A DNA stretch of 40,334 bases, taken from positions 1 to 40,334 of the IMG/VR virus record IMGVR_UViG_3300027963_000134; one strand, 5' to 3'. Below the pieces are notes generated by a model, which saw only the letters and a list, made by a program, of their open reading frames with translations, was not told the origin of the DNA and did not search any database. Positions 16,650 through 24,485 of this stretch are shown piece by piece (the first letter of the stretch is position 1; each line of letters opens with the position of its first letter). The translations under genes and the position numbers were made by a program. The DNA is from a virus.

Positions 16650-17010
16650 ATATAAGGGGGTAATATATAATATAACAGTAATTTTTTACTGGACTATATA
16701 TATAGTAATGCGTCCCGATTAATAAAGCCTACGGACAAATGCTTTTGCCTACCTAATAACTAATTAACGCTATCTAATAAGGCTTTACTAGGGATTTAAT
16801 TGGCTTGTGACTAACTCCCTAAACCTTTTTTACGGGGTAATAAATAAATTATTATTGGGTGGAATAAGGGAAGGGTTAGAAGGCTCACCAATAGGGGCAT
16901 CTATAAAGCAAGGTAGAGGAATAAACAAAATCAAAAAATCAGCTTTTTTATTGCCCTTTCTAGGTCAATTAGGGGTATCTCATGCCCACCCTTAGCCCGT
17001 CCAGATGAGC

Positions 17011-17025
17011 GCTGTATAATACAGC
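17011..17025 (+). promoter_or_regulatory. Palindrome copy 1, GCTGTATAATACAGC
   Basis: A perfect 15-bp palindrome with a single central base; it contains a consensus TATAAT box. It lies 110 bases before the start of the 215-aa gene and just upstream of that gene's own sigma70-like promoter. It is the first of six copies in this block. Confidence 0.8.
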
Positions 17026-17054
17026 AGACGCTTAAAAATAATTTTTGGCTAAGG

Positions 17055-17967: not shown

Positions 17968-17989
17968 GGAAGGGGTACGATTTAAGCCT

Positions 17990-18004
17990 GCTGTATAATA
18001 CAGT
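17990..18004 (+). promoter_or_regulatory. Palindrome copy 2, GCTGTATAATACAGT
   Basis: One mismatch from the perfect palindrome at the last base. It is paired with copy 3, the centres being 91 bp apart, and both precede the gene pair starting at 18121. Confidence 0.75.
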
Positions 18005-18019
18005 AAAATTCGTTTAGAC

Positions 18020-18048: not shown

Positions 18049-18080
18049 ACTACTAACGGGAAAGAACTACCGCCAGCCCT

Positions 18081-18095
18081 GCTGTATAATACAGC
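18081..18095 (+). promoter_or_regulatory. Palindrome copy 3, GCTGTATAATACAGC
   Basis: A perfect copy ending 25 bases before the ATG at 18121. Confidence 0.8.
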
Positions 18096-18120
18096 GAGGC
18101 TCTACTAGAAAGATAAGCAA

Positions 18121-18397: not shown

Positions 18398-18459
18398 CAA
18401 CTGGACAGCCCACGCTAGACGGCATAATCATGGGTGCAATTCCTATGGTGGGCACGCCT

Positions 18460-18474
18460 GCTGTATAATACAGC
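18460..18474 (+). promoter_or_regulatory. Palindrome copy 4, GCTGTATAATACAGC
   Basis: A perfect copy ending 21 bases before ATG 18496, with the ribosome binding site GAAAGG directly between them. Confidence 0.8.
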
Positions 18475-18495
18475 AAGCACTAACGAAAGGTAATC

Positions 18496-18893: not shown

Positions 18894-20120
18894 ATGGATA
18901 CTGTTGATGAAGTAGAAGTCAAGTGTTGTATCGCTTGCAATACTGAATTAAATAGTGATGATGACGGCACTACTACTAGTAGCGGAGACCCTGTCTGTGA
19001 AAGTTGTATGATAATGTGTATCAAATGTGAGAGTGTTATCACAGTTGATGATGAATACAATGATGTAGAGGGTGAGTTATGGTGTCGAACATGTACTCGT
19101 GATGAGGCTACTTGGTGTGATATTTGCGATAACTATTTTACTGGTTATTCATATAGCGCAGATGATAGTAGTGATACTATGTGCGAGAGATGTTTCGAGA
19201 ACAATACTTCTTATTGTGAGGAGTGTGATAACTACTTTGTAAATGGTTGCAGATATGACCATGATGAGGAAAGCGATAGCAGGATTATACATGATTATTC
19301 GTATAGACCTGACCCTATCTTCCACAGTTCAGAGGACGAGCAGACACGCTTGTACTTTGGCATAGAAATAGAAACAGAAACACGAGGTGGCGATTATGAC
19401 GATAGGAGAAACGCTGCCGAGTATGCTCAAGGATTGGAACGAGAATCTATAGCATATCTCAAATCTGACGGCTCACTTAATTGTGGGTTTGAGATAGTAA
19501 CTCACCCATTATCCCATAGTTATTTTATGAATGACGCTAGTGTTCTATGGAATACTGTAGAAACACTTAAGAATAATTATAGTATGATGGCATGGGGTAC
19601 AAAAACTTGTGGACTTCACATCCACATATCTCGTAATGGGTTTAGTGGTGGTTCACACCAACATAGATTCTTACAGTTAGTGTACAACAACAAGGACTTC
19701 TATGAGGTGCTTGCTGGTAGGTCATCTAGTCATTGGGCTAAGTTTGATGATAATGTTGACCCCCGTACTGGTGCTAAATCTCTTAAGCATAAGTTTGAGC
19801 GAGGCGGTAGTGATAGATACTCTGCCGTCAATACCAACAATAGAAATACACTAGAGATGAGAATCTTTAGAGGTAGTCTAAATACTAGATTCATCAAGTC
19901 ATGTATAGACTTAGCGCATGCCAGCGTTGAGTTCACAAGAGTGATGAGTGTTCCCGAGGTAAGGGGGCACAAGTTAGATTGTATTAACCTAATACAATAT
20001 ATCCGAGAGAGAGCAGAGTTATATCCTTCTCTCAATCAAAGATTAAATGGCATGTCCAATGTGATAGATAAAATAGAGAGGAAAGAATATGTGCCTATTG
20101 GTAGTAAGTTCCCCGAATAG
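18894..20120 (+). CDS. Zinc-finger amidoligase (glutamine-synthetase-like COOH-NH2 ligase)
   Basis: A 408-residue two-part protein. Residues 11-120 hold about seven CxxC-type pairs (C12/C15, C35/C38, C42/C45, C64/C67, C75/C78, C97/C100, C108/C111), forming a zinc-ribbon array. Residues 150-380 match the putative amidoligase family of GS-like ligases: FGIEIETE (155-162), SDGSL...GFEIVTHP (191-205), GLHIHIS (240-246) and NTLEMRIFRG (318-327) supply the acidic, His and Arg residues expected for ATP/metal binding. Such enzymes join a carboxylate to an amine. It overlaps the class II glutamine amidotransferase gene by 32 bases, so the pair may make an amide using ammonia from glutamine. The substrate is unknown; cell-wall peptide, a protein or a small molecule are all possible. 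Confidence 0.82.
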   Translation: MDTVDEVEVKCCIACNTELNSDDDGTTTSSGDPVCESCMIMCIKCESVITVDDEYNDVEGELWCRTCTRDEATWCDICDNYFTGYSYSADDSSDTMCERCFENNTSYCEECDNYFVNGCRYDHDEESDSRIIHDYSYRPDPIFHSSEDEQTRLYFGIEIETETRGGDYDDRRNAAEYAQGLERESIAYLKSDGSLNCGFEIVTHPLSHSYFMNDASVLWNTVETLKNNYSMMAWGTKTCGLHIHISRNGFSGGSHQHRFLQLVYNNKDFYEVLAGRSSSHWAKFDDNVDPRTGAKSLKHKFERGGSDRYSAVNTNNRNTLEMRIFRGSLNTRFIKSCIDLAHASVEFTRVMSVPEVRGHKLDCINLIQYIRERAELYPSLNQRLNGMSNVIDKIERKEYVPIGSKFPE

Positions 20121-20910
20121 TACACCCAAGCGTAAAGACCTAGAGTGTGCTTCGTGTAATAATCCGCATGGCTTTGGCTATGCTGTAATTGCTGGTAATA
20201 AAATTATTACTGGTAAGGGTATGTCTGCTAAGAAAATAATCAAAGAGTTCCTAGCGGTGCGTAAGCAATACCCTAGTAGTTATGCTATGTATCATGCTAG
20301 ATTTGCTACGCATGGTGTTAAGAATGATGATAACTGCCATCCATTCCAAGTGGGCGGTAGCGACCTCACATACTTAGCACACAATGGCATTCTTAGTGTG
20401 GATATTCCTGCCAATGATAAGCGTAGTGATACGCGTATCTTTGCTGATGATATTTTACCTGCTATGGGTGGTGTCAAAGCGCTAGATGATGTCAATCTAT
20501 ACAGTATGCTAGAAGGCTGGTCTGCTGGTAACAAGATTGCTATATTTACCCTAGACCCTGTGGCTATGTATGATTGCTACATTATCAACGAGGACTTAGG
20601 TCATTGGGATAATGATGGTAACTGGTGGTCTAATGAAACCTACAAGGCTAGTGCTTGGTCTAGCCTGTTTAAGAAGTCTAATGATTACTATGACCTAGAA
20701 GATATAGGTGGTAGTGAAGATGATTGCATGTGTTATGGATGTGGTACACCACAATTGAGTGATGATAATCCATACTACTGCTTTGACTGTGGTACATGTT
20801 TTGATTGTAGCATGGTCAAGGATGATGGTTGCCTATGCTGGACACCTGAAAGGGAGAAATCCCTCCAACACAAACCAATATATGACGGACAATATGACTT
20901 TGGCTTCTAA
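20089..20910 (+). CDS. Class II glutamine amidotransferase with C-terminal zinc ribbon
   Basis: A 273-residue Ntn hydrolase. Cys2 follows the initiator Met directly (MCLLVV) and would be the nucleophile. Family motifs follow in order: NPHGFG (25-30), YHARFATHG (68-76), HPF (84-86) and LAHNG (96-100), which bind the glutamine amide. Residues about 205-250 hold paired CxxC motifs (CMCYGCG, CFDCGTCFDC, CLC), an added zinc ribbon resembling that of the partner ligase. AGAGAGGAAAG precedes the ATG inside the end of the amidoligase gene. The enzyme would release ammonia from glutamine for that ligase. Similar ligase-amidotransferase gene pairs have been predicted bioinformatically in phages (from memory); the double zinc-finger form seems unusual. 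Confidence 0.83.
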   Translation: MCLLVVSSPNSTPKRKDLECASCNNPHGFGYAVIAGNKIITGKGMSAKKIIKEFLAVRKQYPSSYAMYHARFATHGVKNDDNCHPFQVGGSDLTYLAHNGILSVDIPANDKRSDTRIFADDILPAMGGVKALDDVNLYSMLEGWSAGNKIAIFTLDPVAMYDCYIINEDLGHWDNDGNWWSNETYKASAWSSLFKKSNDYYDLEDIGGSEDDCMCYGCGTPQLSDDNPYYCFDCGTCFDCSMVKDDGCLCWTPEREKSLQHKPIYDGQYDFGF

Positions 20911-20928
20911 AGTAGAAGTCAAACATCT

Positions 20929-20943
20929 GCTGTATTATACAGC
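20929..20943 (+). promoter_or_regulatory. Palindrome copy 6, GCTGTATTATACAGC
   Basis: A perfect copy with T at the centre. It ends 14 bases before ATG 20958, with AGAAAGGA between. No further copies were seen elsewhere in the window. Confidence 0.8.
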
Positions 20944-20957
20944 AAGAAAGGATATAA

Positions 20958-22386: not shown

Positions 22387-22571
22387 TGCCGAACTATGAC
22401 TTCAAATGCAATACCTGTGGTGGCACAAGGGAGCAATTTATACACCACAAAGATTATGAAAAATATGTTGTAAGGTGCTCAACCTTAGACTGCTATAAAA
22501 TAATGGAACGAGTGTATACAGTACCAGGAATCAAATTCAAAGGTCCTGGATTCTATTCGACAGGAGGATAA
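22386..22571 (+). CDS. FmdB-like zinc ribbon protein, 61 aa
   Basis: A single zinc ribbon: MPNYDFKCNTCG with C8-x2-C11 and a second pair C31-x4-C36, followed by the conserved-looking end GPGFYSTGG. This is the layout of the FmdB/CxxC-CxxC regulatory family, here with a widened second pair. Small zinc ribbons of this type occur in many actinophages, probably as transcription or protein-interaction adaptors. The start overlaps the previous stop and its stop overlaps the next ATG. Confidence 0.82.
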   Translation: MPNYDFKCNTCGGTREQFIHHKDYEKYVVRCSTLDCYKIMERVYTVPGIKFKGPGFYSTGG

Positions 22572-23005
22572 TGAAAAATTCGGATTGGGACTTAGACTTG
22601 CGTGATGGGCAAATAGGCGAGAGTAAACTTGCCGACCTATTACACATGGATACAGTAGAAGTTAAGACAGATAGACGCTGGATGGAGACAGGCAACTTAT
22701 TTATAGAGGAGTCTTGTTTCTATCAAGGGAGTGGCACATGGCAGCCGTCAGGCATAGCCGTAAGTAAGGCTACTCATTGGGCTTTCGTGTTAGATAATAA
22801 TGTAATCATAACACCAATAGACCATCTAATAGATGTGGTAAAACACTTTGGTAAACCAATAGAAAATAAACAACCACCTAATCAATCAAAAGGACACTTG
22901 ATTAAACCAGCACACTTGATTAATTATAAGAGGGTTATAAATGAAACCTTCGACAGGGCTGGAGAAGCGTACAAGAACTACATGGAACAAGAGTACCCTA
23001 TTTGA
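22571..23005 (+). CDS. PD-(D/E)XK endonuclease-like protein, 144 aa
   Basis: The N-terminal half has the nuclease pattern: DLRDGQIGESKLADLL with Glu17, then DTVEVKTDRRW with D27, E30-x-K32, and a following strand GNLFIEE. This fits a small restriction-like or Holliday-junction-type endonuclease. The C-terminal half contains a repeated LIKPAHLINY-like stretch with no known motif. It is the last gene of the rightward operon and meets the leftward sigma-like gene head-on. A role in DNA processing or host DNA breakdown is likely. Confidence 0.7.
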   Translation: MKNSDWDLDLRDGQIGESKLADLLHMDTVEVKTDRRWMETGNLFIEESCFYQGSGTWQPSGIAVSKATHWAFVLDNNVIITPIDHLIDVVKHFGKPIENKQPPNQSKGHLIKPAHLINYKRVINETFDRAGEAYKNYMEQEYPI

Positions 23006-23019: not shown

Positions 23020-23757
23020 TTACTCATCGGACCCGTGTTCATCCCTATCTTCATTTGGTTCATGTGGTTCTATGGCTTGGAGATTATCGCTACTATCGTC
23101 TTCTTTTTTATCAAAATCTTTATCTGACCAAGGTCGGAATCCACCGATTCTAGTGATAAGTTTTTTGACTGCACGATTATGGCGCATACGAGCAGCATCT
23201 TCGCTACCTAAATTCATCTCAGTAGCGACATCGCCATAGTCCATAGATTCAGCGTACCTGTAAAACAATACCGTCCTATCCTCGGTGCTGAGTTTGCGGT
23301 ACGCTTTATCTATTTCAATCATCATTACCATCATGTTGCCGCCTTCGGCAGGGGCAGGTGGCTTACTCGGACCAACTAAATTTAACTTATGCGACACACC
23401 AAACTCACCTCGTAAAACTGAGGGCAAGAGTGCTTCGATTATATCTGCTTCATAAAAGAATACATCTGAAGTTTCATAGCCGACAGACTTGGCTTTCCAC
23501 TCTAAACAATAATCCAATGCATCATTACGAAGACAACGATAGATTAGATTTTTAGCATCCTTCTCACCTATTGCTTCCCACTCATTTAACTTATTGGGAT
23601 GTTCGAGGAACCATTTGTATAATGATTGTTTGATATCTTCCAACTCAACCATATCATATTTTCTATGGTACTCAGCAGCAACAGCAATTACTATGTAATC
23701 CCATTTTTCTATGCGCTCCCAAGGGTAGCGCTCAAGGTCCTTGTTTACCACTTCCAA
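23020..23757 (-). CDS. Phage sigma-70-like factor
   Basis: A 245-residue protein. Residues about 20-92 look like a divergent sigma region 2 (helices ending NLIYRCLRNDALDYCLEW), and residues 155-203 match region 4 with its helix-turn-helix (KLSTEDRTVLFYRY, DYGDVATEMNL, ARMRHNRAVKKL). A Pro-rich linker (SKPPAPAEGG) separates them and an acidic tail (residues 212-245) ends the protein. It probably directs host RNA polymerase to phage promoters. It is the last gene of the leftward early operon and overlaps the phosphoesterase gene by 13 bases. Together with WhiB it may switch on the late operon or the palindrome-linked genes. Confidence 0.75.
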   Translation of the reverse strand: MEVVNKDLERYPWERIEKWDYIVIAVAAEYHRKYDMVELEDIKQSLYKWFLEHPNKLNEWEAIGEKDAKNLIYRCLRNDALDYCLEWKAKSVGYETSDVFFYEADIIEALLPSVLRGEFGVSHKLNLVGPSKPPAPAEGGNMMVMMIEIDKAYRKLSTEDRTVLFYRYAESMDYGDVATEMNLGSEDAARMRHNRAVKKLITRIGGFRPWSDKDFDKKEDDSSDNLQAIEPHEPNEDRDEHGSDE

Positions 23758-24485
23758 GTCTTCCCTCCTACAGTAAATGACCTGTTCACAATAGGAACTA
23801 TCTGTGGAACTACAGTCTTACCATCAACATGAAGGATACCAAAGCCTTGTTGCCATGTAAATAATCCAGCCTTTATATATTTTGCGTTACTGTAATTCAT
23901 TAGGTTGCCCAGTTCCATACCCCAAATAGTTTTAGGTTTACCGCCACGATATGTTTGAGTATGATGGGTCAAGCCCATGCGGTGAGTGTGTCCACAGACT
24001 ACAGACATACCACTACGCTTGGCTAATCCAAGGGCTGTAGCACCAGCAGTAGGCTGGACATTACCCTCATCACCATGCATTAACAACCAACCTGGGGCTA
24101 GTTCGTATGGGTCTTTGTGATATTTAATTTCTAATTCTTTTAACCCAAGAAAGTTTTCTAATTCTAATTCAGGTAAACCTAATAGTCCAGGAGAGCGCAT
24201 CATTACAGTATTAAATAATCTATCTGTATGATTACTACGAACCATATGTTCAATAGTTAAATCGTAAAGTACTTGGCGAGTAGTGTCTCTATCGCGCCCA
24301 ATAGAACGCTCAAACTCTAACTCAGTTCCTTTACTCCAACGACTAATAGTTTGCATATCCATTTCATCACCACAAGAAACTACAGTATCAGGTTGGTAAG
24401 CCTTGATAAATTTCGCGATAGCCTTGACGGCTTCTACATCGTGGTAGGGTACTTGAAGGTCTGATATGCAAACAATAGTTTTCAT
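23745..24485 (-). CDS. Calcineurin-like metallophosphoesterase
   Basis: A 246-residue enzyme with the family motifs in order: D9 in ISDLQVP (the usual His of DxH is Gln), GD at 39-40, NH at 85-86, H137 in MHGDEG, and GHTH at 165-168. It binds two metal ions and hydrolyses phosphoesters; substrates in phages are mostly unknown (nucleic acid ends or nucleotides). The start overlaps the HNH gene (ATGA). The Gln in the first motif may weaken one metal site, but this variant occurs in other phage members as far as I recall. Confidence 0.87.
   Translation of the reverse strand: MKTIVCISDLQVPYHDVEAVKAIAKFIKAYQPDTVVSCGDEMDMQTISRWSKGTELEFERSIGRDRDTTRQVLYDLTIEHMVRSNHTDRLFNTVMMRSPGLLGLPELELENFLGLKELEIKYHKDPYELAPGWLLMHGDEGNVQPTAGATALGLAKRSGMSVVCGHTHRMGLTHHTQTYRGGKPKTIWGMELGNLMNYSNAKYIKAGLFTWQQGFGILHVDGKTVVPQIVPIVNRSFTVGGKTWKW

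Follow-up and report, generated by a model that had tools for sequence, protein, structure and literature searches.

A conserved amidoligase and glutamine amidotransferase gene pair with cysteine-rich modules in a viral genome

What do two overlapping genes of the virus record IMGVR_UViG_3300027963_000134, one resembling ligases of the glutamine synthetase (GS) type and the other resembling class II glutamine amidotransferases (GATases), make together, and on which substrate do they act? The window analysed here is the whole stretch of 40,334 nucleotides of that record, and the two genes occupy positions 18894-20910. A preliminary description of this DNA had proposed an amide-forming system in which zinc fingers might dock the two enzymes or a shared target. 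We favour, with moderate confidence, the view that the pair encodes one two-subunit glutamine-dependent amide synthetase. This view is supported by both folds, both full sets of active-site residues, purifying selection, the overlap of the genes and their conservation as a unit.

Two overlapping genes with intact active sites

Both open reading frames were found where they had been placed, together with every motif from which their functions had been read, namely FGIEIETE (155-162), GLHIHIS (240-246) and NTLEMRIFRG (318-327) in the ligase and the N-terminal MC (Cys2), HARFATHG (69-76) and LAHNG (96-100) in the GATase. The ligase matched the Pfam family PF12224 (Amidoligase_2) with 28.2 bits for a Pfam cut-off of 22, which was also passed by ligase homologues from Nocardia, from Clostridia and from the Manatee Spring podovirus. 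AlphaFold2 modelling, with 53 homologues in the alignment, gave a ligase model with a predicted local distance difference test score (pLDDT) of 87. Comparison of this model with the PDB by Foldseek returned GmaS (gamma-glutamylmethylamide synthetase), glutamine synthetases and YbdK first, with probabilities of 1.00 or near 1, and further matches to Dop, PafA and glutamate-cysteine ligase, the expectation values (E) starting from 2.6e-5 across the PDB matches. The global template modelling (TM) score to glutamine-synthetase folds was only about 0.33, the extra finger domain being counted in. Profile and structure thus agree with the earlier assignment of this protein to the GS-like ligases.

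The GATase scored below the cut-offs of GATase_4 (PF13230; 22.4 bits, cut-off 23) and GATase_6 (20.7 bits, cut-off 27). One of its homologues (L206) lay above the GATase_4 cut-off, the protein matched the phage family phrog_25883 (E 3e-38), and its NCBIfam and Pfam matches were GlmS, PurF and GATase_4/6. In the AlphaFold2 model, good for residues 1-185 and poor beyond residue 185, the glutaminase domains of human GFAT-1 and E. coli GlmS were matched with E down to 2e-7, and EgtC structures less well (E 2e-4 to 1e-3, TM up to 0.5).

Active sites were compared among 189 distinct ligase-GATase pairs from phages, Actinomycetota and Bacillota. All ligase core residues listed in Table 1 were identical in 189/189, except D192, which was kept in 188/189; the predicted metal and nucleotide ligands (ExE, E, HxH, ExR) were therefore all conserved. 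In the GATase, C2, R71, T74, G76, H98, N99 and G100 were invariant in 189/189 and D114 was kept except in part of the clostridial group. Both catalytic sets are intact, and the GlmS-like fold with its N-terminal Cys, Arg, Asn-Gly oxyanion and Asp upholds the class II assignment of the second protein.

Measured against close relatives, the ratio of nonsynonymous to synonymous substitution rates (dN/dS) indicated purifying selection on both genes (0.12-0.21 overall, 0.14-0.21 for the ligase), and nothing in the window sequence suggests decay of either enzyme. The length of the overlap is also kept, at 32 bp in 92 of the 175 freshwater-phage pair entries and at 13 bp in 78 of the 80 actinobacterial pairs. 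In the window, the 32-bp overlap would couple translation of the GATase to that of the ligase.

The pair as a unit, its cysteine modules and its carriers

When loci were fetched by the ligase alone, a GATase lay directly downstream on the same strand in 77/77 viral loci with room for it, and directly downstream of the ligase in 107/114 such bacterial-genome loci; these loci are not independent, because contigs turned up in more than one search and the relatives are similar to each other. The two genes hence co-occur in related phages, and near-universal pairing together with purifying selection on both genes places the observation beyond chance. Ligase and GATase trees share their major groups (freshwater phages; Actinomycetota with Marvin; Clostridia), the trees being quick ones with long and uncertain deep branches, and the two tandem pairs of many Nocardia gave matching paralogue groups in both. 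Many of the Nocardia loci (L191-L266, e.g. L203 and L208) carry 2-3 tandem pairs whose active sites are intact and whose genes overlap by 13 bp. A divergent pair occurs in Bifidobacterium phages (L106 1912-3521, L271 1842-3440, L272 2860-3500), among which the ligase of BA720P3 has fingers and core intact and that of BP677P1 is split by a frameshift. As a third fixed partner gene we considered the WhiB block of the freshwater phages and a CxxC protein of the actinobacteria, neither of which is common to all lineages. The latter, with motifs of the GGLVVPWITP...RRCxVCG...CPMLAG type, was present in 38/51 actinobacterial loci (e.g. L219 7857-8465, L194 9431-9955), in most of them at most 2.2 kb downstream of the pair, and had no Pfam match.

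The CxxC modules announced for the N terminus of the ligase and the C terminus of the GATase were both found, and each can be described cysteine by cysteine. In the ligase, 13 cysteines (C12, C15, C35, C38, C42, C45, C64, C67, C75, C97, C100, C108 and C111) are invariant in 53 homologues, as are C215, C218, C231, C234, C237, C240, C248 and C250 of the GATase, whose module is poorly modelled (pLDDT about 54-64). To judge from these patterns, both modules probably bind zinc. Fingers 1-2 of the ligase have the spacing CxxC-x19-CxxC-x3-CxxC-x18-CxxC, to be compared with CxxC-x16-23-[HC]xxC-x2-CxxC-x16-21-CxxC in LIM domains. LIM domains were also among the weak profile and structure matches of the fingers (Foldseek probability up to 0.99, E at least 0.04), which is suggestive of a LIM-like nature. 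Traces of the linker RIIHDYSYRPDPIFHS that joins the fingers to the core are present in Marvin and in gut relatives.

The two modules differ in their distribution. Ligases carry 6-7 CxxC motifs in Clostridia, mostly 7-8 in freshwater phages, mostly 10-11 in Actinomycetota, 4 in Marvin and 2 in MEP401, counts that include overlapping motifs. The GATase module with its four CxxC was found in 168/175 freshwater-phage entries, in 72/80 actinobacterial entries and in Marvin; it was absent in 24/24 clostridial entries, in the Manatee Spring podovirus and in MEP401, although some of the zeros probably come from truncated entries. As read from sequence, the double-zinc form is thus confined to Actinomycetota and their phages. 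Because Clostridia, the Manatee Spring podovirus and, in reduced form, MEP401 keep ligase fingers next to GATases without the module, docking is unlikely to be the basic role of the fingers, and the proposal that fingers dock the two enzymes fails as a general rule. Within the actinobacterial lineage alone, fingers may possibly dock the subunits or hold the complex together; the ligase fingers may also serve to bring the substrate.

The terminase of the window is 74% identical to those of LanE43-AprE7 and LanE43-AprF5 (hereafter E7 and F5), cultured phages of 'Ca. Planktophila' (PMC10202952), and many other window genes align with E7 and F5 genes in like order (OX376640/OX376641). The cassette of the pair continues with a WhiB gene (74/74 relatives) and a transglycosylase-like gene (73/74). 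Judged by its terminase, its gene order and its WhiB gene, the phage very probably infects a freshwater actinobacterial host of the Nanopelagicales type. The pair, a metallophosphoesterase gene (23745-24485) and the gene at 22571-23005 had no match in E7 or F5, so that even among these phages the pair is an accessory trait. The 23745-24485 product, a calcineurin-like phosphoesterase, was found in 69/69 pair-bearing relatives with room for it; the OM43 phages, which in many cases bear the pair, often have such a phosphoesterase too. Its association with the pair could come from shared ancestry.

Named viral carriers are Marvin and its kin, the OM43 phages MEP401/402, the Manatee Spring podovirus and Bifidobacterium phages; cellular carriers are Nocardia, Actinoplanes, Amycolatopsis, Pseudonocardia, Saccharopolyspora and many Clostridia. 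An alignment built from phages only retrieved no close relatives in bacterial genomes, and a broader alignment led to 76 bacterial-genome loci. Some cellular pairs adjoin genes for DUF4192, SSB, Replic_Relax, a TrwB-type coupling protein, Prim-Pol, ArdC, a relaxase or serine recombinases; with the probes used, mobility markers lay within 6 kb in 17/51 actinobacterial and 15/24 clostridial loci. Mycobacterial plasmids also carry the ligase or the pair. Taken together, a mobile-element habit is likely, though perhaps not for every carrier.

Table 1. Features of the amidoligase-GATase locus (positions in the window; aa, amino acids; ORF, open reading frame)
Feature	Position	Strand	Basis
GS-like amidoligase (COOH-NH2 ligase), 408 aa	18894..20120	+	ATG..TAG ORF; PF12224; AlphaFold2; Foldseek; dN/dS
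Ligase N-terminal finger array, aa 12-119: three CxxC-x18/19-CxxC fingers and a partial fourth	18927..19250	+	invariant cysteines
Conserved linker RIIHDYSYRPDPIFHS, about aa 130-145, fingers to core	19281..19328	+	H133, Y135, Y137, P139, D140, F143 invariant in 53 homologues
GS-like catalytic core, aa 153-350: E158, E160, D192, E200, H242, H244, R247, R276, N313, E321, R323	19350..19943	+	conservation in 189 homologues
Putative GATase ribosome-binding site AGAGAGGAAAG, within ligase gene	20075..20085	+	sequence reading
Ligase/GATase gene overlap, 32 bp	20089..20120	+	ORF coordinates
Class II (N-terminal nucleophile, Ntn-type) GATase, 273 aa	20089..20910	+	ATG ORF; phrog_25883; GFAT/GlmS folds
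GATase catalytic domain, aa 1-185: C2 (Cys1 after Met removal), R71, T74, H75, N99, G100, D114	20089..20643	+	conservation
GATase C-terminal module, aa 215-250, CxxC-x12-CxxC-xx-CxxC-x7-CxC	20731..20838	+	8 Cys invariant in 53 homologues
Conserved GATase C-terminal tail YDGQYDFGF	20881..20907	+	similar tail in many freshwater phages
TGCTGTATWATACAGCA-type palindrome just 5' of ligase ribosome-binding site	18866/18867-18882		one of 6 window copies
TGCTGTATWATACAGCA-type palindrome just 5' of next gene (20958)	20928..20944		sequence repeat
Other TGCTGTATWATACAGCA-type palindromes	17010-17026, 17989-18005, 18080-18096, 18459-18475		sequence repeat

Candidate mechanism, substrates and rival explanations

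As an amide synthetase, the pair would work as follows. The GATase would hydrolyse glutamine by means of its N-terminal cysteine to yield ammonia, the ligase would draw on ATP and Mg to turn a carboxylate into an activated acyl phosphate, and the ammonia would convert the acyl phosphate to a primary amide. The subunits may form a complex in which ammonia is passed between them, with the fingers recruiting the substrate. Several observations weigh against this scheme. A full-text literature search found no experiment on the pair family. EgtC is among the structural matches of the GATase, which could therefore be an amidohydrolase and not an ammonia source. Carriers differ in wall type: some are Gram-positive, whereas MEP401/402 infect Gram-negative hosts. 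Finally, seven genomic ligases and the ligase of C. difficile phage AR1086-1 (L105) have no adjacent GATase, and Bifidobacterium phage BP742P1 retains the GATase beside a ligase with a large internal deletion, so that in some carriers either enzyme may work without the other.

The most likely substrate is a peptide-borne carboxylate, which we put forward as a bet. For the phage of the window, we rate two candidates about equally and hold each of them tentatively: peptidoglycan stem peptides, for instance in a wall altered during infection to exclude other phages, and a protein of the host or the phage that the finger array would recruit. The WhiB and transglycosylase-like genes of the same cassette hint at the wall. 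The large finger array kept by the ligase in nearly all lineages, and the protein-modifying fold relatives Dop and PafA, hint at a macromolecule.

Each candidate can be worded more narrowly as a substrate version of the amide synthetase. In the first, the pair would amidate lipid-linked precursors of the wall, at D-isoglutamate or meso-diaminopimelate, and so block competing phages or lysins, which is possible although we lean against it. Its plan is that of the two-gene wall amidation by MurT/GatD (PMC6113224), the neighbouring transglycosylase-like protein and WhiB fit it, a phage WhiB has been reported to prevent superinfection (PMC10202952), and wall modification against superinfection was proposed by Iyer 2009, as cited in later papers (PMC10580990). 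However, the enzyme families of the pair differ from those of MurT/GatD, many actinobacteria already amidate their walls, phages of Gram-negative hosts also carry the pair, and E7 and F5, the nearest cultured phages, have WhiB and the transglycosylase-like gene without it.

In the second version, the fingers would recruit a defined host or phage protein in which Asp, Glu or the C terminus becomes an amide, serving takeover or counter-defence; this we consider possible to the same degree as the first. The LIM-like spacing and the weak LIM matches of the fingers, the presence of at least 8 CxxC motifs in most actinobacterial ligase copies, and the carriage of the pair by phages, mycobacterial plasmids and loci near relaxase, coupling protein, Prim-Pol, ArdC and recombinase genes all point to it, but the LIM similarity is below significance, and mobility markers accompany only the minority of actinobacterial loci given above and 15 of the 24 clostridial ones. 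A still broader proposal makes the pair a self-contained protein-amidation system of mobile elements, serving the phages and the conjugative elements of both actinobacteria and clostridia, in which fingers pick the protein and carboxylates become amides with removal of charge. We regard this as unlikely, and we know of no bacterial precedent for a charge-removing conversion of carboxylate to amide as a protein modification.

A different activity would follow if the pair resembled EgtA/EgtC, the ligase joining a target to glutamate or a different amino acid, and its partner removing that group as a gamma-glutamyl amidohydrolase. The EgtC matches of the GATase model, and the presence of glutamate-cysteine ligase (the EgtA family) among the fold matches of the ligase, speak for this. 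Since EgtC also keeps the glutamine-binding residues, conservation does not separate the two readings of the GATase. Nevertheless, GFAT/GlmS glutaminases match better than EgtC, the family matches are GlmS, PurF and GATase_4/6, and a tight coupling of making and removing would be odd without an enzyme between them, no third gene being conserved beside the pair in all lineages. We therefore consider an EgtA/EgtC-like activity improbable. That the pair serves as auxiliary genes for assimilating or moving amide nitrogen in the infected cell, as has been suggested for another phage, which has a glutamine amidotransferase and an amidoligase together with two further genes (PMC10945688), is very improbable, as a free metabolite would leave the large conserved finger arrays and the 8-Cys module unexplained.

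Membership of the MurT/GatD or LtsA/AsnB systems was also considered and rejected, no family match being above cut-off, and PADLOC-DB gave no anti-phage defence match for eight pair proteins.

Upstream palindromes, related systems and significance

Six copies of a TGCTGTATWATACAGCA-type palindrome were counted in the window, confined to positions 17.0-20.95 kb, and several precede a start codon of the rightward operon by 12-30 nt. A perfect palindrome is present in the 50 nt before the ligase in 57/73 relatives, compared to 9% of random windows, with 30 different sequences at that place among the relatives (L021-L100). The palindrome of a given phage appears, on average, 6.5 times within its own locus and 0.44 times in the loci of others, and 63% of the copies precede a ribosome-binding site and start, compared to 22% at random. 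A reading as RNA hairpins was rejected: sense-strand G-U pairs do not outnumber A-C (11 vs 23), which favours a DNA operator. Changing in concert from one phage to the next, the palindromes look like a private, fast-changing operator code. Comparable elements are the start-associated sequences of cluster K mycobacteriophages and the stoperators of cluster A.

Among known systems, gp105/gp106 of Marvin and Marvin-type records share with the window the gene order, the N-terminal CxxC fingers of the ligase and the four C-terminal CxxC of the GATase, at 28-30% and 34% identity; they differ in that the genes are about 80 bp apart without overlap, the ligase has fewer fingers and its C terminus is longer. 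Marvin-type ligases (e.g. JF704100 gene 105) are annotated 'glutamine amidotransferase domain', which is the family of the downstream neighbour. In OM43 phages MEP401/402, ligase and GATase are likewise adjacent and overlapping, whereas the ligase fingers are reduced, the ligase carries a long N-terminal extension and the GATase has no zinc module. The GATase of MEP401 ends in a counterpart tail, YNKSFDF. EgtA/EgtC also combine a GS-like ligase with a class II Ntn hydrolase, but EgtC removes glutamate and does not supply ammonia, and neither protein has zinc modules. The cassette of LUZ24/phiEco32-type phages (Amidoligase_2, GATase_6, ATP-grasp and gamma-glutamyl cyclotransferase), for which wall or peptide modification has been predicted in the literature, likewise holds both enzyme families in one block; there, as in Rhizobium phage N3_13, an extra ATP-grasp ligase and other genes lie between them, whereas the window has the pair alone. 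MurT/GatD is a two-gene ligase and glutaminase whose MurT bears a Cys4 zinc ribbon with a role that is not clear (PMC6113224). By family, however, MurT belongs to the Mur ligases and GatD, with its Cys-His-Asp triad, to the class I GATases, and profile searches found no match to either type in the window pair.

Pairs in Marvin and OM43 phages were already noted, with predicted roles, in PMC10580990, which cites Iyer 2009 and Mageeney 2012. Ligase-GATase pairs in phages are hence not new as such. The earlier claim of novelty may hold for the double zinc layout, of which no description was found in the literature searched, the texts of Iyer 2009 and Mageeney 2012 lying outside its scope. The present analysis adds how widely the family occurs, how strictly its two genes are paired, that their overlaps are conserved, how the zinc modules are distributed by lineage, and which host the phage very probably has.

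Ever since their prediction in 2009, phage GS-like amidoligases have raised the question of what they act on. One isolated observation has now grown into a well-delimited two-gene unit with its key residues listed, in which the universal parts (the ligase fingers and both active sites) are told apart from the lineage-specific zinc module of the GATase. As the pair is present in culturable hosts, with Marvin in M. smegmatis and in the genomes of Nocardia, Amycolatopsis and Actinoplanes, the question of its substrate is now directly testable.

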